From Chitinophaga sancti (GTDB taxonomy: Bacteria; Bacteroidota; Bacteroidia; Chitinophagales; Chitinophagaceae): a stretch of 64,000 bases of DNA. Every line of letters starts with the position of its first letter. Within the stretch, counting starts at the first letter, position 1. The stretch spans positions 7,342,001 through 7,406,000 of the forward strand of contig NZ_CP139247.1 of assembly GCF_034087045.1 (NCBI RefSeq), read 5' to 3'. The position numbers and the translations under genes were made by a program. This document shows positions 32,131-41,449 of this stretch, piece after piece. The notes under the pieces were generated by a model. That model did not search any database, had not been told where the DNA came from, and saw only the letters and a list, made by a program, of their open reading frames with translations.

Positions 32131-33056
32131 TATTTGTCAGCTACGTAATGCAGCTCTTTGTACTTCATGGCATTATTGATCAACTGAATGGCCAGTTTAA
32201 GCACATCTGACTCCTCTTTAGCCTCTACTTTCTTTGCGGTATCAGTTGGTTTGTGGTAGTCGTCATGTGGCCCTGTATGGAGGAAAATAACAGGTACTCC
32301 ACTGATATAGAAATTATGGTGATCAGAAGGCCCTTTGCCTGCCCCATCAGTGAAGAACTTAATACCTGGTTGCGCAACACCTTTGAATACATCCGGCCAT
32401 TCTTCCGCACTAGCATAACCGCCGATACCTAAACCGCGTTCTGCATTGTAACGGCCAATCATATCCATATTCAGCATAAAATGTACTTTTTCCAGTGGAA
32501 ATACCGGATGAGCTACATAGTACTTAGAACCTTGTAATCCCATCTCTTCACCACCAAAAGCGATGAACAGGAAATTGAATTGTTCCTTCAGTCCGTTCTT
32601 CGCGAAATACCGGATAAATTCCAGTAAGCCAGCGATGCCGGAGGCATTGTCATCGGCTCCATAATGGATCTGTCCTTCCGGGTACTTTCCATCAAACAAA
32701 AGTGCAGTACCGATATGGTCATAGTGAGCGCCGATGATAATCGTACGGGGGGCTCCGTTATCCAGGTATCCAATCACATTTCTGCTTGGAATATCATGAT
32801 GTTCTTTACGATCAAAAGTAAAATCCTGAAAATAGCTGGTCCCGTTTGCTGGTTGCAAGCCCAACTTTTTAAACTGTTTCTCCACCCATGCAGCCGCCTT
32901 TCTACCACCTTTTTCATCGGTACCACGGCCTTTTAACTTATCGGATGCCAGGTAGTTGACAGTGCTACGGATACGTGCTTCAGAAGGCATGTAATCCTGT
33001 GCAAAAGCATTCACAAAACAAGAGGTGCTGAACACCAACAATAACAATCGCTTCAT
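32130..33056 (-). CDS. M28-family zinc metallopeptidase, exported
   Basis: A 308-residue predicted periplasmic aminopeptidase. The signal peptide is MKRLLLLVFSTSCFVNAFAQ. Two-zinc ligands in family order: His/Asp in IIIGAHYDHIGT and YGADDNASGIAGLLE, the catalytic Glu pair in AFGGEEMGLQGSKYY, Asp in LNMDMIG, and His in FLHTGPHDDYHKPTDTAKK. All are present, so the enzyme should be active. A PA insert is missing, as in short bacterial members. It is the only gene in its transcription unit. Confidence 0.92.
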   Translation of the reverse strand: MKRLLLLVFSTSCFVNAFAQDYMPSEARIRSTVNYLASDKLKGRGTDEKGGRKAAAWVEKQFKKLGLQPANGTSYFQDFTFDRKEHHDIPSRNVIGYLDNGAPRTIIIGAHYDHIGTALLFDGKYPEGQIHYGADDNASGIAGLLEFIRYFAKNGLKEQFNFLFIAFGGEEMGLQGSKYYVAHPVFPLEKVHFMLNMDMIGRYNAERGLGIGGYASAEEWPDVFKGVAQPGIKFFTDGAGKGPSDHHNFYISGVPVIFLHTGPHDDYHKPTDTAKKVEAKEESDVLKLAIQLINNAMKYKELHYVADK

Positions 33057-33088
33057 TTAGGATATGATATATGATGAGACCAAAAAAA

Positions 33089-33121
33089 AACAGCCCTTAC
33101 TTTTGCAAGCGGAGGGCTGTT
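33089..33121 (-). terminator. Distal terminator of the C39-like/LanC-like unit
   Basis: AACAGCCCT and AGGGCTGTT arms. On the minus strand the stem is followed by a run of nine T, so it works for transcription coming from the C39-like gene. Confidence 0.7.
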
Positions 33122-33223
33122 TCCAATAATATAAGGTCAAAACTACGTGATAACATTTACATGGGCATATCACAAATGTGCCATTTATAAGGTTAAATAT
33201 GTATCACTATGAGGTTAATAAAA

Positions 33224-33245
33224 GCCCCCTCGCGCAGGAGGGGGC
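33224..33245 (-). terminator. GC-rich hairpin directly after the C39-like gene
   Basis: GCCCCCT (33224-33230) pairs with AGGGGGC (33239-33245). On the minus strand a T-rich tract follows. It lies 28 bp from the C39-like stop. Confidence 0.7.
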
Positions 33246-33272
33246 AATTGTACAATGTACAGCATATAGGGG

Positions 33273-33728
33273 TTAAAAATCAGGTGGAGAGGGATCCAGG
33301 TACAGCATAATACCATGCTCGCCGTCCTGTGTCCATCCTCTCAGAAAATCTAATTTGTCTAATGTGATCAGTCCAGCCGTAGGGTCGGATATATAAACTT
33401 TGTCCCCCCTTATTTTATACATGACAATAAAACGGCGCTGATACCAGTACCCGATACAGGGTAACAGGTCGAGTGATAGAATGTCAGCCAGAGAAACTTT
33501 TGCCCCCAAAGTACCAAAACCAATTTTTCCGGCGGCATCGCCGAGGTCCTGCAGCGGGCTGCCACTTTCAGCAGTCGCCCACAGAGACCTTACATATTCA
33601 TGTGTAAGATTCTTTCCAAAGTGTGTACTTAATATGTGCAAACAGGCAGGACCATCGTCCGTTTTGCCCTGCTGTTTACAGTGGGGAAATGGATGTTTTT
33701 TGCGCTGCGGAATCAGACTGTTGATCAT
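33273..33728 (-). CDS. C39-peptidase-like protein lacking catalytic residues
   Basis: A 151-residue stand-alone C39 (bacteriocin-processing peptidase) fold. The framework is clear: PHCKQQ...DGPACLHILSTHFGKN, GISDAA-like DLGDAAGKIGF, a PCIGYW strand, FIVMYKI, VYISDPTAGL. However the catalytic Cys of the DCGP motif is Asp25 (DDGP) and the catalytic His before F.V.Y is Arg99 (YQRRFIVMYKI). Only the Asp of SDP (115) remains. No ABC-transporter membrane or ATPase domain follows, unlike normal leader-peptidase exporters. It is therefore probably a binding-only C39-like domain, as in the C39-like domain of HlyB. It is encoded downstream of the LanC-like gene (128-bp gap). Confidence 0.75.
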   Translation of the reverse strand: MINSLIPQRKKHPFPHCKQQGKTDDGPACLHILSTHFGKNLTHEYVRSLWATAESGSPLQDLGDAAGKIGFGTLGAKVSLADILSLDLLPCIGYWYQRRFIVMYKIRGDKVYISDPTAGLITLDKLDFLRGWTQDGEHGIMLYLDPSPPDF

Positions 33729-33800
33729 ATCCGGAAGTCTTTTGCAGGTGATTGGGTTATTATCTCACAACGATGAAAGGCCGGCTATTTGTTTGTGTGT

Positions 33801-33818
33801 TCAGGTGCATGCACCTGA
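33801..33818. promoter_or_regulatory. Perfect 18-bp palindrome between LanC-like and C39-like genes
   Basis: TCAGGTGCATGCACCTGA is fully self-complementary, with no loop, in the 128-bp spacer upstream of the C39-like gene. It is more like a protein-binding site than a terminator. What binds it, if anything, is unknown. Confidence 0.45.
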
Positions 33819-33856
33819 GGTCGAAAATAGTCTCCATTCGATTTTAGTTTTAGTTA

Positions 33857-35035
33857 TTATAAAAGCAACAGATCAGTCCATGGAAGTTCTTCATTGATCA
33901 GGTGCCCCAACAGAACCAGTGCCACGCCTGTCAAGCCTTCCAGCATGAGGGTTTCGCGGCCTTTGAAGCTTTCTTCGTTCAGCACTACTTCCAATCTTTT
34001 TATTGTTTCATTGATCCAGTAATGCCATCCTTCAAGATAACTTTCTTCATTACTATAACGGTACAACGAATAATAATACTGAGCTAACCCGGCGGTGCCA
34101 TTCAGAAAGTAAATATCATCGACCTGGGTAGCTTCGCAGGTTTTGCGCATCAGTGAGCTACCGCCCACGAGATCCGCCATCTGCTTAAGGTTTTCGTCTT
34201 GTAATACAAAGGATGCTTTGTAAAAAAGAGATACCTGGTTCAGATCTCCATAACACCATCCGAGACGGTTATTATAGTTTTTTTCATCTTCTGCTTCACT
34301 GGTAGTGAGTGGGAAGAATGACCAGTCCTGTCCGATCAGGTCCACTTCGCGCAGTTGGTGTCGTACAAAGCGGATGCCTTGCTGTAGCAGGTATCCAGTC
34401 TTTAATGCGTCTATCTCTGCTTCATGCAATGCAGTAAGTACGGAGAAAAATCCTGCCTGTCCCTGCGATAAGCTAAAGTTGATCTGTCCAGTACCAAATA
34501 AAAAGATATTCTTGAACCAGACGCCATGTTTGGTCACTACACATTTATCGTACAACACACGGATGATCTCCCTGAGGTATATCGCTATTTTAGGCTGTGG
34601 CAGCCTGTCTGTAAAGTACTTGATGATGCCAAACGCACCGTGCAGATAATCCTGTTTATCATCTTTGATCAGTTGTAAAGCCTGATGGTAGAGATAGTCG
34701 TCATATCCGGCCAGTTCCTTATCTATGTCTATATTCAAAAGGCCGTCTTTGTACAGGAGGTTGATCACACTGGTAAGGCCGCAGATACCGGTTGCCAGGG
34801 AAGGCCCATCCAGTTCCAGGGTTCCTTTATTCATATGATCCAATACCTCGTCGAGCAGCGCATACGTCTTATCTAAATAAGTATTGTCCCTGTACCCCTG
34901 CCATAGGGAATGATAGTACACGATCAGGCCCAGCTTACCTCCGCTCATCAGGGTGTCATTATCAACGGTGTGCTGATCTATGAGCTGATGAAGCTGTGCG
35001 AGGAGGCTCTCCACTTTTACCGGTTCCTTTACCAT
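33857..35035 (-). CDS. LanC-like protein with degenerate zinc site
   Basis: A 392-residue alpha/alpha-barrel protein of the lanthionine-synthetase-C family. Gly-rich barrel motifs recur (SGGKLGLIVYY 31-41, DYLHGAFGIIKYF 129-141, LSQGQAGFFSVL 189-200, GWCYGDLNQV 259-268, FLNGTAGLAQYY 310-321, LEGLTGVALVLLGHL 365-379). Of the zinc ligands known from NisC (Cys, Cys-His), only the first is kept (Cys261 in WCYGD). The CHG pair reads LNG (311-313), and the acid/base His of the AHG motif is Gln191. Cyclase activity is therefore unlikely. There is a minus-strand -7 element 16 bp before the ATG. It is divergent from a lanthipeptide-like precursor gene. Confidence 0.8.
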   Translation of the reverse strand: MVKEPVKVESLLAQLHQLIDQHTVDNDTLMSGGKLGLIVYYHSLWQGYRDNTYLDKTYALLDEVLDHMNKGTLELDGPSLATGICGLTSVINLLYKDGLLNIDIDKELAGYDDYLYHQALQLIKDDKQDYLHGAFGIIKYFTDRLPQPKIAIYLREIIRVLYDKCVVTKHGVWFKNIFLFGTGQINFSLSQGQAGFFSVLTALHEAEIDALKTGYLLQQGIRFVRHQLREVDLIGQDWSFFPLTTSEAEDEKNYNNRLGWCYGDLNQVSLFYKASFVLQDENLKQMADLVGGSSLMRKTCEATQVDDIYFLNGTAGLAQYYYSLYRYSNEESYLEGWHYWINETIKRLEVVLNEESFKGRETLMLEGLTGVALVLLGHLINEELPWTDLLLL

Positions 35036-35051
35036 TCCTGAATGCTTTTAA

Positions 35052-35059
35052 CAAACTTA
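35052..35059 (-). promoter_or_regulatory. -7 element of the LanC-like gene
   Basis: The minus strand reads TAAGTTTG, a match to TAnnTTTG, 16 bp before the ATG. Confidence 0.55.
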
Positions 35060-35226
35060 TAAAGTATGTGGGGGGTGGGGAAAAAAGATACACGGATTTA
35101 GGTTTTAGAAGGACGGATTTGGTGTTTTTATAGGGTTACCTTTTTGCCATTTCCGTATACGCGGTTGCGATAGAAAAAATCTTTTGAAATCCACGTCCTG
35201 CGTAGATTCCCTGCGCAGTTACCCTC

Positions 35227-35234
35227 TAATTTTG
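35227..35234 (+). promoter_or_regulatory. -7 element of the precursor-like peptide gene
   Basis: TAATTTTG matches TAnnTTTG and ends 28 bp before the ATG of the 56-residue peptide, supporting that this short ORF is expressed. Confidence 0.5.
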
Positions 35235-35262
35235 TCACTGTAATCCCTAATAATTGTGAAAT

Positions 35263-35433
35263 ATGAAACAGACCCAAAAGAACACCCCAAAAAAGACGTT
35301 GACCCTGAATAAGGTGACAGTATCTATGTTTAATAACAACGTTTTTAACCCAAAAAATGGAAATAAATTCCATTTTACATCCGTGATCGATACAACCACT
35401 TCTGTTAACTGCCCCCTGACAGTAACAAAGTAA
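35263..35433 (+). CDS. Lanthipeptide-precursor-like small peptide
   Basis: A 56-residue ORF. Residues 11-20 KTLTLNKVTV plus SMFNNN match the leader pattern of Bacteroidota class I lanthipeptides (K-x-L-x-L-N-K-x-T-[VI]-S-x-[LF]-N). The C-terminal stretch from residue 39 is rich in Ser/Thr (TSVIDTTTSVN) and has a single Cys50 near the end (NCPLTVTK), so at most one thioether ring could form. There is no double-Gly cleavage motif. A -7 element precedes it and the LanC-like gene is divergent. No dehydratase (LanB or LanM) is visible in 64 kb. It could be a degenerate or non-lanthionine peptide ligand instead. Confidence 0.6.
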   Translation: MKQTQKNTPKKTLTLNKVTVSMFNNNVFNPKNGNKFHFTSVIDTTTSVNCPLTVTK

Positions 35434-35552
35434 TTACAAGGGGGGACGAGGACAATAAAAAAACGGTTTTGTAATTCCGGATTTTGATTAATTTTCAAGG
35501 CTGAACTAAAACTCCTTCTGGTCGAAGGTTATTTTAGGACAGCCTTTTTTTT

Positions 35553-35560
35553 TATTTTTG
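35553..35560 (+). promoter_or_regulatory. -7 element of the S41-kinase-regulator operon
   Basis: TATTTTTG matches TAnnTTTG and ends 32 bp before the S41 peptidase ATG. Confidence 0.5.
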
Positions 35561-35592
35561 TACCTGTGCTATAATAAACCATTAAATAATAC

Positions 35593-37050
35593 ATGTTTTA
35601 TTACCTTACGTTAATCCGCTTGTTTGGTCTATATCTTTTATTGAACCTGTTTTGTCTTCCGCTTGCCCACGCACAAATCAAGTCCTGTAATTGCAGGAGT
35701 AACTTTAACGAAGTGGTTGCTAAAGTAGAGCATAACTATCCGGGATATTCTATCAAGATCACTTCAGCTAATGAAGCTGCTTACAGACTATTTACTGACA
35801 GTCTCAGAAACGTGGCTGATACAGCCAATTCCGTTACCTGCTTTTCTATTTTGCAAACCTGGACAGGCTATTTTAAAGACAGACATCTTGCACTCGTATT
35901 TAAAGACATTCCAGAAAATAAGGAACTTATCGACGAAATATTTTCCAATAGCAAAAGCTTTCCTTTGTCTAAAGACTCTCTGCTAAAGAAATGGGCTACC
36001 GCTCCTGACTACCCGCTGGAAGGAATATGGACCCTGAGTGGAATGTATGAAGTGGCCGTTATTAAAAAGGATAGTGGTTACCAGGGCGTCATATTGAAGG
36101 GAGATGGTAAATACTGGAAAGCAGGACAGGTTAAATTTGAATTACAGCCTTATAAAATTGGTTACTGGAAAGCAGCCCAGTATAACCAGTATCATATGAA
36201 GGATACCTTCACTGCATACGTCGATGAACAGTCCTTTATTATGGATCTCAAGAGCTATAAATGGGAGAAAACTTTCCCGGGCCAGACCAGTCAAAAATCT
36301 ATCCCCGCAGATAGCTTCTATTTTTCAAAAACTGATAGTAATAATGCCATATTAAGGTTACCTAGCTTTGAATTACCTTATAAATCGCTCATTGACAGCC
36401 TGATAACAAAAAATTTTCATACAATCACTCATACTGCCAACCTCATTGTGGACATACGCGGAAATTATGGAGGATTCAACATTTGCTTCGAAAAACTAAT
36501 CCCCCTGCTTTATACGGATCCAATAATAACACAGGGACCAGTCGTAAAGGCAACAGATGAAAATATCCGTTTGTATGAGCAGATGCTTAAAAGTTCACTC
36601 TTTCCTGAGGACAAAAAACCCCCTTTTATCAGGATGGTCAAAAATCTTAAAAAGCATAAGGGCGGCTATTTCCAGCCTCCGGCGGACACAACCACTTTTC
36701 CAAAGGTGTATGCACAACCTGAAAAAGTAGGTTTCCTGATGGATGAAGGCTGCGCCAGTGCCACAGAATTATTAATTTTGGACGCAAAACAAAGTAAAAA
36801 AGTAACTTTGTTTGGAAAGCGGTCAGCTGGCGTAGTGGATTACTTAAACCTGGTAGCACCGAGACCTTTGTCCTGCTCCCGTTTTTTACTCTGGATACCC
36901 ACTGCCAGATTAGCCAGCCTGCCACAACATCCTATTGATAACATTGGTATTTTGCCAGACGTTGAAATCCCTCATCATGAGAACTGGATCAACTATGCGC
37001 AGCAATACCTGGAAAACCTGGAGATTAAAATTGCCAATTCTTCAAAATAG
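35593..37050 (+). CDS. S41-family serine peptidase, exported
   Basis: A 485-residue protein with signal peptide MFYYLTLIRLFGLYLLLNLF...AHAQ and a Cys-rich start of the mature chain (KSCNCRSNF). The tail-specific-protease-like core (about 250-460) has LIVDIRGNYGGFN, the nucleophile region in EGCASATELLIL (Ser before Ala-Thr-Glu) and GKRSAGVVDYLN. No PDZ domain is apparent. It resembles S41 peptidases of Bacteroidota with unknown substrates. It is translationally coupled to the downstream kinase gene, whose start lies inside its 3' end. A role in processing an exported peptide near the LanC-like locus is speculation. Confidence 0.82.
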   Translation: MFYYLTLIRLFGLYLLLNLFCLPLAHAQIKSCNCRSNFNEVVAKVEHNYPGYSIKITSANEAAYRLFTDSLRNVADTANSVTCFSILQTWTGYFKDRHLALVFKDIPENKELIDEIFSNSKSFPLSKDSLLKKWATAPDYPLEGIWTLSGMYEVAVIKKDSGYQGVILKGDGKYWKAGQVKFELQPYKIGYWKAAQYNQYHMKDTFTAYVDEQSFIMDLKSYKWEKTFPGQTSQKSIPADSFYFSKTDSNNAILRLPSFELPYKSLIDSLITKNFHTITHTANLIVDIRGNYGGFNICFEKLIPLLYTDPIITQGPVVKATDENIRLYEQMLKSSLFPEDKKPPFIRMVKNLKKHKGGYFQPPADTTTFPKVYAQPEKVGFLMDEGCASATELLILDAKQSKKVTLFGKRSAGVVDYLNLVAPRPLSCSRFLLWIPTARLASLPQHPIDNIGILPDVEIPHHENWINYAQQYLENLEIKIANSSK

Positions 37051-38152
37051 AAAAATTTCATTCAGACAAAAGCTATCTACTGTACTGACACATGTAGGGC
37101 TCTGGATACTGTACGCACTGGTGCAGGTAAGTGGATCTGCTATTCAGATACCGAACCCGTGGCCTGTCATAATTATCACCAGTATAGTATTTGCATTTCT
37201 ATCTGTCATTTTTTATGTGAATGCAGAGTGGCTTTTACCTCGAACACTGGAAAAAGGTAAAAAGGCCCTCTGGCTGGTAGGGTTAGCAGTTTTCTTTGTC
37301 TATAATATACTTAACAGATATTTTATTTTATACATAATTTATCCTGTTGTGGTTCATCTTCCAACTCCTAAGGTTGAATGGCGCATACTGATCAACATAT
37401 CGATCTGGTATTGGTTTAATGCTGTTGCACTTTCTACCGCATACTGGTTTTACAAATTATCCATTAAAAGAGAACGAAAAACCAGCTTACAAAGAGAAGA
37501 AATCAACCGTAAGGAAAGAGAACAACTGCAGCTCAAACAGGAAAAACTGGAACTCGAAGTCGCCTACCTGCGCGCCCAGATCAATCCACACTTCCTCTTC
37601 AACACCCTTGGATATTTCTACAATAAAACCGCCAACTCCCACCCGGATGTGGCCGAAGGCATCGCCGCCCTCACCAATATCATGCGCTCTTCCCTGAAGA
37701 AAAAAGGCCCCGATGGCATGGTTTCATTAGAAGAAGAAATCGAACACATCGAAAGCCTGATCAGCATCTACTACATGCGTTTCAATAACAATATCCATAT
37801 TGAATACAGCAGACCTGACAACCTGCACGGCCAACGAATCCTACCACACATACTCATCACACTGGTAGAAAACGCTTTCAAACATGGTGAACTGCACAAT
37901 GCCGCTTACCCGCTGAAAATAAAGCTCACTTTAGATGATAATGGCCTCTATTTCTGTATCAACAACAAAAAACGGATAGGTCCAAAAGAAATATCCAACG
38001 GCATCGGCATGGAATACGTGCAGCGCCAGCTGGACAACACCTATCCTAAAAAATATTCCTTTGATATAAAAGAGACGGACCTGTTTTATAGCCTGTCTTT
38101 ACATATTGCTACCACCGAAATTACCCTACATGATCAACTGTTATATAATTGA
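36995..38152 (+). CDS. LytS-type sensor histidine kinase
   Basis: A membrane kinase (385 residues from the ATG at 36995; the frame is open further upstream to a TTG at 36935, and an ATG at 36977 is also possible). Four hydrophobic segments are followed by a coiled coil (REEINRKEREQLQLKQ) and the kinase core with phospho-His in AQINPHFLFNTLGYFYN, N-box VENAFKHGEL and GIGMEYVQRQL. It overlaps the S41 peptidase gene by 56 bp and the response regulator by 23 bp. The signal is unknown. Confidence 0.9.
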   Translation: MRSNTWKTWRLKLPILQNRKISFRQKLSTVLTHVGLWILYALVQVSGSAIQIPNPWPVIIITSIVFAFLSVIFYVNAEWLLPRTLEKGKKALWLVGLAVFFVYNILNRYFILYIIYPVVVHLPTPKVEWRILINISIWYWFNAVALSTAYWFYKLSIKRERKTSLQREEINRKEREQLQLKQEKLELEVAYLRAQINPHFLFNTLGYFYNKTANSHPDVAEGIAALTNIMRSSLKKKGPDGMVSLEEEIEHIESLISIYYMRFNNNIHIEYSRPDNLHGQRILPHILITLVENAFKHGELHNAAYPLKIKLTLDDNGLYFCINNKKRIGPKEISNGIGMEYVQRQLDNTYPKKYSFDIKETDLFYSLSLHIATTEITLHDQLLYN

Positions 38153-38867
38153 CGACGAACAACACGCCATAGACCTGCTAACGGGTTATGTACAACGTAC
38201 CCCCTTCCTGAAACTGGTAGGTAGTACCACCGAAGCCCTCGATGCAATCAAAGTGATCAGTAATGAAAAAGTAGACCTGGTATTCCTGGATATTCACATG
38301 CCCAGCATCTCGGGTATCGACCTGCTCAAGATCTTTAACAACCAGACCAAAGTCGTTCTCACTACCGCCTACAGCGAATACGCCATGGACGGTTATGAAC
38401 ACGATGTAGTCGACTACCTGCTCAAACCCATCACCTACCAGCGCTTTCTGAAAGCCGCGCAGAAAACACTGAACATGTTCCAAACCATGTATGTGAGCAA
38501 AGGTGAAAACAATGAAAAGGTAGAACCCGAAGTAGACTACCTGTTTGTAAAATCAGAACATAAGGGTAAACAGATCAAAGTCAATTTCAACGATATCGAT
38601 TATATAGAAGGACTGAAAAACTATGTCGCTTTTCATTGTGATAAGGAAAAGATTCTGGCCTTGCTCAAGATGAAAGACCTGGAGCAAACCCTGCCCCCAC
38701 GGCAGTTCGCCAGGATTCACAACTCCTTCATCATCTCCCTGAACAGGATCGTTTCTGTAGATGGCAACCAGGTCATTCTACGCAAACCAGATCAGCAAAC
38801 GGTGGCCCTGCCAATCGGCATTACGTTCAAGCAACCTTTCTTTGATATGATCAAACTCAATAAGTAA
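38130..38867 (+). CDS. LytTR-family response regulator
   Basis: A 245-residue regulator. REC: CYIIDDEQHAI, phospho-Asp in LVFLDIHMPSISG, Lys in DYLLKPIT. LytTR domain (about 140-240): VKSEHKGKQIKVNFNDIDYIEG and RQFARIHNSFIISLNRIVSV. The ATG at 38130 was chosen over an upstream candidate because it starts the REC beta strand. It is coupled to the kinase (23-bp overlap, the same length as in the 9.4-kb pair). A probable target is the convergent outer-membrane receptor, by proximity only. Confidence 0.93.
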   Translation: MINCYIIDDEQHAIDLLTGYVQRTPFLKLVGSTTEALDAIKVISNEKVDLVFLDIHMPSISGIDLLKIFNNQTKVVLTTAYSEYAMDGYEHDVVDYLLKPITYQRFLKAAQKTLNMFQTMYVSKGENNEKVEPEVDYLFVKSEHKGKQIKVNFNDIDYIEGLKNYVAFHCDKEKILALLKMKDLEQTLPPRQFARIHNSFIISLNRIVSVDGNQVILRKPDQQTVALPIGITFKQPFFDMIKLNK

Positions 38868-38973
38868 GCGGGTATTTTACTTTAAAAACGCCCCTTCACT
38901 AAATATGATACGGGGTAAAGTAAAATCGCTCAAAAAGAATAAATGGAATCTACTTCCATCAGATATCCAAATG

Positions 38974-39007
38974 AAAAGGGTGCATCAAAAGTTTGATACA
39001 CCCTTTT
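38974..39007. terminator. Terminator between the response regulator and the receptor
   Basis: AAAAGGGTG.ATCAAA pairs with TTTGAT.CACCCTTTT, with a 2-nt loop and one mismatch, flanked by A and T runs. It serves convergent genes. Confidence 0.7.
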
Positions 39008-39049
39008 CGGTACTTAATTGACGACCTCCTCAAAACGGATCGTCCCCCA

Positions 39050-41449
39050 TTAATTTGATTGAATCCGTTTCTTTTCTTTTTCAATACCCGTTTGTCTTTC
39101 CGTTCTTGGCTTTATCTTACTATTACCGAACCGGTATGTAAAACTCAGCATCGCAAAGCGGGAGTCAAATAAAAAATGCTGGCGGATATTTACCTGCTGG
39201 TAATCCGACGCTAATGTAAATTGCTGTCCCCTGAAAATATCGTTCACACTCAGCTTGAGCGTTCCTTTGTTCTTCAATACATTTCTTTGTATCCCTGTAT
39301 TCAACACAAAATAACTGGTCAGCGCACCCAGGCCCGTATTAGATCTGGATGAATAAATCGCATTCAGCTCCAGCGTAAAAAGACGGGGAATACTAAAGGT
39401 ATTATTTGAAATCACATATGCTCCGGGTTTTGACTTTGGCAATGTGATGTCGTTGTAATCGTAGTGCATGTAGTAGACCTGAACAGAGTTCATCGTATTC
39501 CACCACTTCGTCAAAGCAGTCGAATATGTAACGCTCAGATTGTAGTTATCAAAACGAGTCACGTTTTGATAAGTGGTAATCAGCACCTTGTTAGGCCCCG
39601 CTTCGTACACACCGGCAATCACATCGTTGGTACGGGAGATGCTAAGTGTTGTAAATAACCGCTGTTTCCAGGAATGTGATAACTCTACAGAAGTGCTATT
39701 CTGTGGATTCAGGGCCGGGTTGCCCTGGAAGTAATAATACTTGCTCCGGAAGAACAGGAACGGATTTACATATTCATACTGGGGCCTGTCAATACTCCTT
39801 CTTACAGACAGACCAAACCGCTGCGATGCAGACGCTTTGTATTGCAGGGTAAAACCGGGGTAAACCCCGGTATAGTCCTTTGTGAACACACTTGAATTCG
39901 TAATACTGTTTCCCTTTACATGGGTGTTCTCGACCCGCACACCTGCCTGCAACACCCATTTCTTAAATTGGTTATGATAATTGATGTACCCTGCATTGAC
40001 ATTTTCATCGTAAATGAAATGGTTGGTCTTGGTGGCATCGTTCACCCAGGTATCATTATCCAGCACTTCCCAACGGATGTCGCTGTCTGTTTTTACAAAG
40101 ACGGTTTTCAAACCGGCATCGAAGACGCCTATTTTAGTAGGTCGGGTAAAATCAGCCGATACGGAACGGATGGCCACAGATACGGGAGAACTGTTGCGAA
40201 TCACATAAGGCATCTGATATACCTTCATCTCGGTATCCAGGTAGGCGGTGTTGAAATTGTCATTCCAGCGCTGATCGTAATAAGCATAGTCACCATTGAT
40301 GGAGAGCTGGGTGCCGGTACTGTCAAAGTTATGCTGGTAAAACAGGTTGGCTGAATAGTTATTGATATTGGCATGCCCGAGGGTATGCATATTCAGCAGG
40401 GAATCAAAAGGGGCTGACTGACTGGCGCGGAACATGGTCTGGTCCATGCCATCTCTTTCACGGCCCAGGAAGTTCCCCTTCAGATCCAGGCCTATATTGT
40501 TCTTTTTATCGATTGTATAGCTAATGCCCGCATTGACATTATGGATGTCCTTTTTGCGCACTTCGTAATTTCCCTCATCTATGTATTCTGCATCCAGGAT
40601 ACGGGCCGTATGAACGTCGTAGAACTGTTCGTTTCGCTGGTAATTGTAGTTTCCGTAAATGTTCACCTTATCATTGCGGTAGTTCAGGTCTCCACCAGCG
40701 GTGTAACGACCGTAACGACCTCCCCCTCCTCCTACACTCAGGCTACCGTTGGTACCGGATTTACCTGACTTTTTCAACTTTATGTTGATGATGGCCGAAG
40801 CGGCGGCATCGTATTTTACAGAAGGGTTAGCGATCAGTTCTATTTTGTCAACCGCGTTGGAAGCAGTGGAGAGCAATAGATTTTTGAGCATAGCAGCGGT
40901 AAAATAAGACGGACGATCGTTGACGTAAACCATCACCTTCTTTCCGTTGAGGGTAATGGAACCATCATCGTCCAGTCTCACACCTGGCGATCGGCGGAGG
41001 AGTTCCTCCAATGTATTGCCGGTAGCGAGTGGGCTCTCGGCTACATTGATGATCATTTTGTCGGCTGTCTGCTCAATGAGTGGCTTCAGGGCCGTCACCT
41101 GGTGGGTATTCAGATCGTAAGAGACCGATAGCATGCCAATAGCAGGCAGCACCAGGGATTGGGTACTCAGTTGAAACGGGCCGGTCGTTTTGTCGCGATA
41201 GCCGAGGTATTTCACCTGGAGGCTATAGCTACCCGGTTTCAGGTTTTCGAAATTGAAATTACCCTCTTTGTCAGTCTGGGTAGCTTGCCTGATGGTATCC
41301 GTGAGTAATAACACCATGGCAAATGGCAGATTTTGGTTGCTGAGGGTATCGGTTATTTTGCCTGAAACGGATAGTCTGAGTGACTGTGCAGGCAAACGGA
41401 CAGTGCTGCACAGACAAAAGAATAGTACACTCAGTTGTATCGGCTTCAT
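39050..41449 (-). CDS. Outer-membrane beta-barrel protein, TonB-dependent receptor-like
   Basis: A 799-residue outer-membrane protein: signal peptide MKPIQLSVLFFCLCSTVRLPAQ, a carboxypeptidase-regulatory-like domain (about 28-115; GKITDTLSNQNLPFAMV...), a plug-like domain (about 120-220, with TLEELLRRSPGVRLDDDGSITLNGK), and a large OMP_b-brl_3-type barrel to the end. No SusD partner follows, so it is not a polysaccharide-utilisation locus; siderophore, peptide or other ligands are possible. The -7 element TATGTTTG (minus strand) lies 21 bp upstream. It is convergent with the S41-kinase-LytTR operon. Confidence 0.88.
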   Translation of the reverse strand: MKPIQLSVLFFCLCSTVRLPAQSLRLSVSGKITDTLSNQNLPFAMVLLLTDTIRQATQTDKEGNFNFENLKPGSYSLQVKYLGYRDKTTGPFQLSTQSLVLPAIGMLSVSYDLNTHQVTALKPLIEQTADKMIINVAESPLATGNTLEELLRRSPGVRLDDDGSITLNGKKVMVYVNDRPSYFTAAMLKNLLLSTASNAVDKIELIANPSVKYDAAASAIINIKLKKSGKSGTNGSLSVGGGGGRYGRYTAGGDLNYRNDKVNIYGNYNYQRNEQFYDVHTARILDAEYIDEGNYEVRKKDIHNVNAGISYTIDKKNNIGLDLKGNFLGRERDGMDQTMFRASQSAPFDSLLNMHTLGHANINNYSANLFYQHNFDSTGTQLSINGDYAYYDQRWNDNFNTAYLDTEMKVYQMPYVIRNSSPVSVAIRSVSADFTRPTKIGVFDAGLKTVFVKTDSDIRWEVLDNDTWVNDATKTNHFIYDENVNAGYINYHNQFKKWVLQAGVRVENTHVKGNSITNSSVFTKDYTGVYPGFTLQYKASASQRFGLSVRRSIDRPQYEYVNPFLFFRSKYYYFQGNPALNPQNSTSVELSHSWKQRLFTTLSISRTNDVIAGVYEAGPNKVLITTYQNVTRFDNYNLSVTYSTALTKWWNTMNSVQVYYMHYDYNDITLPKSKPGAYVISNNTFSIPRLFTLELNAIYSSRSNTGLGALTSYFVLNTGIQRNVLKNKGTLKLSVNDIFRGQQFTLASDYQQVNIRQHFLFDSRFAMLSFTYRFGNSKIKPRTERQTGIEKEKKRIQSN

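Follow-up and report, generated by a model that had tools for sequence, protein, structure and literature searches.

The window analysed here is the 64-kb stretch between bases 7,342,001 and 7,406,000 of the single-contig, 8.32-Mb genome of Chitinophaga sancti. It carries a locus in which a free-standing C39-like protein and a LanC-like protein are encoded beside a lanthipeptide precursor-like peptide (Table 1). A sequence-only reading of this DNA had described these three lanthipeptide-type genes as standing together, with both enzyme-like members lacking catalytic residues, and the alignments bore this out. Judging from the gene order in relatives, the unit extends beyond the three genes, and the stretch from 35593 to 41449, with genes for an S41 peptidase-like protein, a histidine kinase (HK), a response regulator (RR), and an outer-membrane protein, was also included. 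The HK motif NPHF and the RR motif FLDI retain their His and Asp, respectively. Relatives of the outer-membrane protein (30 to 35% identical) adjoin LanB in other clusters.

Table 1. Features of the locus in window positions; genes are longest-open-reading-frame (ORF) calls.
Feature	Positions	Strand	Size and remarks
C39-like protein, free-standing	33273-33728	-	151 aa; Pfam Peptidase_C39 E=2.3e-21
LanC-like protein	33857-35035	-	392 aa; LANC_like E=3.2e-17
Direct repeat ACGGATTTA-N12-ACGGATTTG	35092-35121	+	21-base period; candidate RR site
Conserved DNA 5' of peptide	35153-35262	+	~110 bases
Precursor-like peptide	35263-35433	+	56 aa; conserved leader, Ser47-x-x-Cys50
S41 peptidase-like protein	35593-37050	+	signal-peptide-like N terminus
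HK	36935-38152	+	mechanical ORF; true start probably 3' of S41 stop
LytTR RR	38130-38867	+	
OMP_b-brl_3 outer-membrane protein	39050-41449	-	

In the alignment of the C39-like protein, Asp occupies the position of the catalytic Cys (DDG for DCG) and Arg that of the His (RRF; relatives show RHF, NHF, or a comparable motif). Gln19 and Asp115 are retained. A C39 peptidase needs both the Cys and the His, so the protein falls outside these enzymes and among the non-catalytic C39-like domains, which keep the C39 fold without the catalytic Cys. Its ORF carries the C39 domain alone, with no fusion to an ABC exporter. In the LanC-like protein, Gln191 replaces the catalytic His. Cys261 is kept as a zinc ligand and the zinc-binding Cys-His pair has become Leu311-Asn312, which leaves two of the three zinc ligands lost. 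The protein belongs to the LanC fold family PF05147 by its LANC_like sequence and fold, and the cyclase site of catalytic His and Cys/Cys-His zinc ligands is no longer present.

The partners of a class I lanthipeptide cluster are also missing. The window gave no match to the LanB family PF04738, and all four matches in the 8.32-Mb genome lie outside it, the nearest at 7.55 Mb. No C39-ABC exporter was found in the window either; the other four of the genome's five C39 matches are outside it, in frames of 732 to 753 codons. The earlier statement that neither a LanB dehydratase nor a C39 ABC exporter is nearby was thus upheld, and the exporter ABC part and HlyD are absent from the locus as well. 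A GG leader site with a catalytic C39 domain is common, although not universal, in Bacteroidota class I clusters; here, the window peptide has no GG and the local C39-like protein has neither Cys nor His.

At E<=0.001, a LanC match was obtained in 54 of the 79 genomes of the genus searched. The best match was 89 to 97% identical in four genomes besides the window's own, and the next genome reached 45%. These four Chitinophaga genomes (G052, G053, G048, and G045) have the gene order of the window, from TPR-PBP-M28 through the outer-membrane protein, so the arrangement for which a search of relatives had been proposed does recur, with C39 broken in one genome. Ten more distant LanC relatives in the genus (34 to 45% identical; L086 to L095, in stretches that end at 20 kb) all have an RR and HK within 5 kb; LanB lies within 10 kb in 8/10, with S41 in 6/10 and C39-ABC in 3/10. 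The precursors beside S41 in such clusters have a KLxLNK-type leader and a Cys-containing core, with GG in five of eight aligned rows. Outside the clade, the best three C39 matches are the exporters of class I clusters in C. nivalis (G030), C. japonensis (G024), and C. rupis (G044), at 47, 46, and 42% identity. Because LanB/C39-ABC/HlyD clusters are among the nearest outside relatives and their exporters are the closest matches of the C39-like protein, the locus derives from such a cluster. Its ancestor was a complete class I lanthipeptide cluster, of a type that relatives still have, and the window clade has lost LanB, the exporter ABC and transmembrane parts, and HlyD.

The peptide scored 12.4 bits against the class I lanthipeptide leader model NF038153, for which the cut-off is 22. 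A profile search retrieved 19 database proteins, and where these carry a name they are annotated as hypothetical. Among 24 aligned peptides, M1, K2, K10, K11, T14, L15, K17, F23, S47, and C50 are invariant, and the remainder of the core is variable. The leader has the form LTLNK-x5-F in every sequence; compared with the class I leader motif LxLxKx5L (PMC7268733), the last Leu is Phe in all 24. A chance ORF was rejected because the homologues share an invariant leader, and the peptide gene is real, diversifying, and precursor-like. Pairwise ratios of nonsynonymous to synonymous substitution (dN/dS) among the five genomes were 0.11 to 0.47, a weaker constraint than that on the proteins. G053 has three neighboring peptide genes with differing cores (L083:10155-11104). 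GG is absent from the peptides of the window, G052, and G045 and from all three G053 copies. Where it occurs in the family, it follows polar residues, whereas the precursors of the relatives have a hydrophobic residue before GG in four of the five GG rows (eight aligned); the GG site is eroded in the peptide family. Conservation of the leader implies that it is still recognized by something, and the C39-like and LanC-like proteins, by their fitting folds, are the local candidates.

The ~110 bases upstream of the peptide are 98% identical in G052, 95% in G053, 96% in G048, and 93% in G045, compared with 26 to 85% for the other spacers of the locus in G048 and G045. This stretch, nearly unchanged in five genomes, may be conserved beyond the needs of a promoter alone. 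It contains TAATTTTG at 35227-35234, which we take to resemble the Bacteroidota -7 box. LytTR regulators favor direct repeats such as the one in Table 1. In three of the five genomes (G053, G048, and G045), the direct repeat with its 21-base period precedes both the LanC and the peptide starts, and in the window and G052, where the spacer is shorter, it occurs once. The consensus was derived from the window, and the informative copies are therefore only the second ones in G053, G048, and G045. Genome-wide, the repeat occurs at the locus and one other place, for which reason it was rejected as a regulon marker; the loci of 22 relatives gave five weak matches in five loci. A second candidate marker, CTGCGTAG-ATTCC-CTGCGCAG, was likewise rejected, with a single site in the genome at <=3 mismatches. 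A scan of positions 33000 to 39100 for RNA elements returned a single match, to a long noncoding RNA family below its gathering score; it was taken as chance, and a known RNA element at the locus was rejected.

The LanC-like protein belongs to a clade of 12 sequences, namely, the five genome loci and P0001 to P0007 of 75 database homologues, in which the former catalytic position is Gln throughout and which has one origin (tree support, 98/100). All 12 are 391 or 392 aa long with no broken frame, and 240 of the 392 columns are invariant. Zinc column 311 is occupied by Leu, Ser, Gly, or Cys, and only 4 of the 392 columns, 311 included, are so variable; in all 68 database homologues outside the clade, this column is Cys. 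Column 312 holds Asn in 10 members and His in the other 2, a single member has lost Cys261, and the tyrosine that follows Cys261 is among the 23 most variable columns. P0006 has Gln at the catalytic position with all zinc ligands kept, and a C39-like protein with DDG (P0077) lies on a contig equal in length to that of P0006. The catalytic His and the C39 Cys may thus have been lost first, after which the zinc site would have been freed while the remainder stayed constrained.

Between the window and G048 (dS of ~0.6), dN/dS was 0.08 for the LanC-like gene and 0.09 for the C39-like gene; the values were 0.10 for S41, 0.12 for HK, 0.01 for RR, and 0.08 for the outer-membrane protein. Since the folds are kept, the catalytic residues are lost, and the clade is under purifying selection, a non-catalytic function of the LanC-like and C39-like proteins is likely, and this suggests that both now bind or sense the peptide rather than modify it. 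The earlier proposal of a non-catalytic pair gains from the kept folds and the purifying selection; its separation of the locus from normal lantibiotic clusters was not supported, given the LanB/C39-ABC/HlyD clusters among the nearest relatives.

Those clusters also bear on the view that the locus is a dying cluster, in which low dN/dS would mean that function was lost recently, next to an HK-RR pair that is still of use. The sequence-only reading had held that intact homologous loci would reduce the module to a decaying lanthipeptide cluster. Such homologues exist, but mere decay fits poorly, except in G045 (one of five genomes), where a frameshift has left a remnant of the C39 gene, with DDG still readable in one frame of the DNA. 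This remnant, the different erosion of zinc ligands among sub-lineages, the eroded GG in 14 of the 24 peptides, and the missing local LanB and exporter are all as expected of decay. However, the losses of the catalytic His and of the C39 Cys predate a divergence at dS of ~0.6, yet dN is only ~0.05 and the LanC-like frames are intact in 12/12; moreover, change is concentrated at the zinc site, and the upstream DNA and the leader remain constrained. We consider slow decay improbable, and the locus does not appear to have simply decayed.

A wider pattern was sought in 30 LanC-family rows, of which the genus supplied 17, the family search (matches at E<=1e-40 in 21 of 394 genomes) 12, and a named contig 1. 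The rows, selected for their resemblance to the LanC-like protein of the window, are not independent of one another. In 25/30, an RR is encoded within 5 kb, and in 17/30 it ends 6 to 111 bases upstream of the LanC start on the same strand. Loss of the His or of zinc ligands was seen in 8 of the 12 rows without LanB within 10 kb versus 1 of the 18 with LanB (Fisher P = 0.0006; 0.012 with kin collapsed and 0.035 also without L095, in which no LanB was found in a further 15 kb). L155 to L158 run against the pattern, with LanC intact and no LanB nearby (read to ~10 kb or less; LanB occurs elsewhere in these genomes). G050 has its own defect (Ser for Cys and Gly-Tyr for the Cys-His pair), and its 84%-identical kin G030 is intact. 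In G190 and G260, which belong to another genus, a dead LanC directly follows HK and RR; its His is replaced by Asn or Glu, its zinc Cys by Asn, and its pair by Tyr-Tyr or Tyr-Ala. The 20-kb stretches read there hold no LanB, and each genome has one elsewhere. A Cys-less peptide lies upstream of the dead LanC, and nonsynonymous change in this LanC is low (pN of 0.20, with a saturated pS of 0.82). The LanC tree does not settle the position of these two among other LanCs, nor does it prove several origins of the other defects. L163 and L164 (~5-12 kb) show HK, RR, and a dead LanC behind a Cys-less peptide of 57 or 45 aa that ends near TGD[TS]TVIR, together with an M50-like protein (weak, below the cut-off) and a lipid A acyltransferase match just above the cut-off; this is possibly another peptide system.

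Our explanation, to which we give not quite an even chance, is that a class I lanthipeptide cluster is maintained here despite the loss of the local chemistry, with the LanC-like and C39-like proteins as peptide-binding pseudoenzymes that serve the HK-RR pair. The C39-like protein would be a free domain reading the precursor leader, and the LanC-like protein would hold the Ser-x-x-Cys part; their role might be that of an escort, an antagonist, or an output of the neighboring HK-RR pair. Through the direct repeats of 21-base period, the RR could govern the two divergent transcription units. S41 or an unlinked protease may trim the peptide, an exporter encoded elsewhere may carry it out, and it would then serve as a signal or effector. 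The HK-RR-S41 part is probably the key to function. The HK-RR adjacency, the loss pattern, and, by analogy, the precedent of CA_C0082, a degenerate lanthionine-synthetase-like effector discussed below, make a signaling role more likely than local biosynthesis. It is possible, although we hold this with some doubt, that LanC beside LytTR two-component genes in Chitinophagaceae has a second, non-catalytic role, in signaling or in binding a peptide, which after LanB loss would be the sole reason for its retention, so that pseudo-LanC peptide receptors or effectors arose repeatedly; the window clade would then add a free pseudo-C39 to its pseudo-LanC.

Several observations weigh against binding pseudoenzymes. 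Ser-x-x-Cys, the requirement for a thioether, is present in all 24 peptides, and GG persists in 10 of them, that of G048 included, so the loss of the C39 site is incomplete. In G045, C39 is dispensable. Class III cyclase domains cyclize without zinc ligands (PMC7268733; PMC10301443), and zinc loss alone is no proof of inactivity. In one study of NisC, secretion needed its function and not its mere presence, although the same paper cites an earlier contrary result (PMC7378552). In the same genome, a cluster at 8.23 Mb has LanB and a C39-ABC with intact DCG, yet its LanC is without the Cys-His pair. The LanC-like protein might still be an enzyme, zinc-free or with altered chemistry, but the catalytic His is also lost in 12/12 and the zinc column varies freely, and we regard this as very unlikely. 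The 8.23-Mb class I cluster (L099, G000:C1:8217001-8237000) comprises two Cys-rich precursors, LanB, C39-ABC, and an outer-membrane protein, and its LanC has Ile-Tyr instead of the pair. The LanCs of L098a and L101 are likewise without it, as are second LanC-like genes at L096:1036-2166 and L098:9193-10365, in clusters with an additional, intact LanC and a LanB.

The main and serious rival is a split cluster, in which the LanB and LanC of a locus elsewhere in this genome, at 2.02 Mb, would still act in trans to dehydrate and cyclize the peptide. That would leave the LanC-like and C39-like proteins next to the peptide as escorts or relics, and its cleavage and export may fall to unlinked exporters of the C39-ABC type. 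LanB is found elsewhere in all five genomes, and the single one in G045 and in G048 stands beside a LanC of the 2.02-Mb type, a further point against our explanation. In the window genome, none of the four residues is missing from the 2.02-Mb LanC, and the precursors of that locus have leaders resembling that of the window peptide. The invariant Ser-x-x-Cys, the closeness of LTLNK-x5-F to LxLxKx5L (PMC7268733), the GG in 10/24 peptides, and the three precursors of G053 with their varied cores also suit modification in trans. Nevertheless, the final Leu of the leader motif is Phe throughout, the five genomes are one clade, in which shared LanB presence says little, and this scheme leaves unexplained why the dead LanC-like and C39-like proteins should be constrained. 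In general, we judge this alternative rather unlikely. Loci of the 2.02-Mb type (L100, L170, and L171) hold LanB/LanC and precursors without GG, and the 20 kb read showed no exporter; in the homologous loci of G044 and G061 (L105 and L106), the precursors do have GG, and a free-standing C39 retains its DCG. L101 (G000:C1:7541001-7561000) has a LanB-like gene in two ORFs, a C39-ABC, and a long LanC-containing ORF; nearby ORFs are presumably a transposase and a reverse transcriptase.

No published description of the module was found in the open-access literature, and several known systems come close to parts of it. Among relatives, the class I clusters of G024, G030, and G044 have the order HK-RR-LanC, often with S41. 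They share with the window the homologous LanC, HK, and RR and, where present, S41, the outer-membrane protein, and the precursor leader, and they differ in having LanB, C39-ABC, HlyD, and a LanC with all four residues. The C39-like domain of HlyB has the C39 fold without the catalytic Cys and tethers cargo instead of cutting it; it is an exporter N terminus, whereas the window protein is free-standing with putative binding (PMC8277102). Some LanC-like proteins of Bacteroidales have neither the zinc motif nor a LanB, and HK and RR are present in one of their clusters (PMC10352776). These differ, compared by description only, in their radical SAM genes and in being placed by the authors nearer endoglucanases.

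The closest precedent is CA_C0082 of Clostridium acetobutylicum, a degenerate LanM-like protein whose gene lies 88 bp downstream of agrA and which is an effector of Agr signaling (PMC10301443). As in the window, the protein is degenerate, lanthionine-synthetase-like, and devoid of zinc-site residues, has no biosynthesis partners nearby, and is encoded near a two-component system, which there answers to a peptide. In the window, too, a degenerate synthetase-like gene accompanies a LytTR two-component system, with the peptide, S41, and HK between the RR and the LanC-like gene. CA_C0082 differs in being of the LanM type (dehydratase plus cyclase) and in its Agr peptides, whereas the window has no LanM architecture but a stand-alone class I LanC-like protein (392 aa, LanC domain only) with a lanthipeptide-type precursor, C39-like protein, and S41, in Bacteroidota. 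The association of a degenerate lanthionine-synthetase-like protein with LytTR two-component genes is therefore already known, and the window locus adds unusually complete intermediates. Relatives with all four LanC residues, P0006 with its His lost and zinc ligands kept, and the drifting zinc site of the window clade form a natural series from intact to selected non-catalytic proteins, which makes the pseudoenzyme transition testable. Genome mining that equates a LanC gene with lantibiotic production would misread such loci. Together with CA_C0082, the locus suggests that lanthionine-synthetase folds have repeatedly been recruited to peptide signaling.
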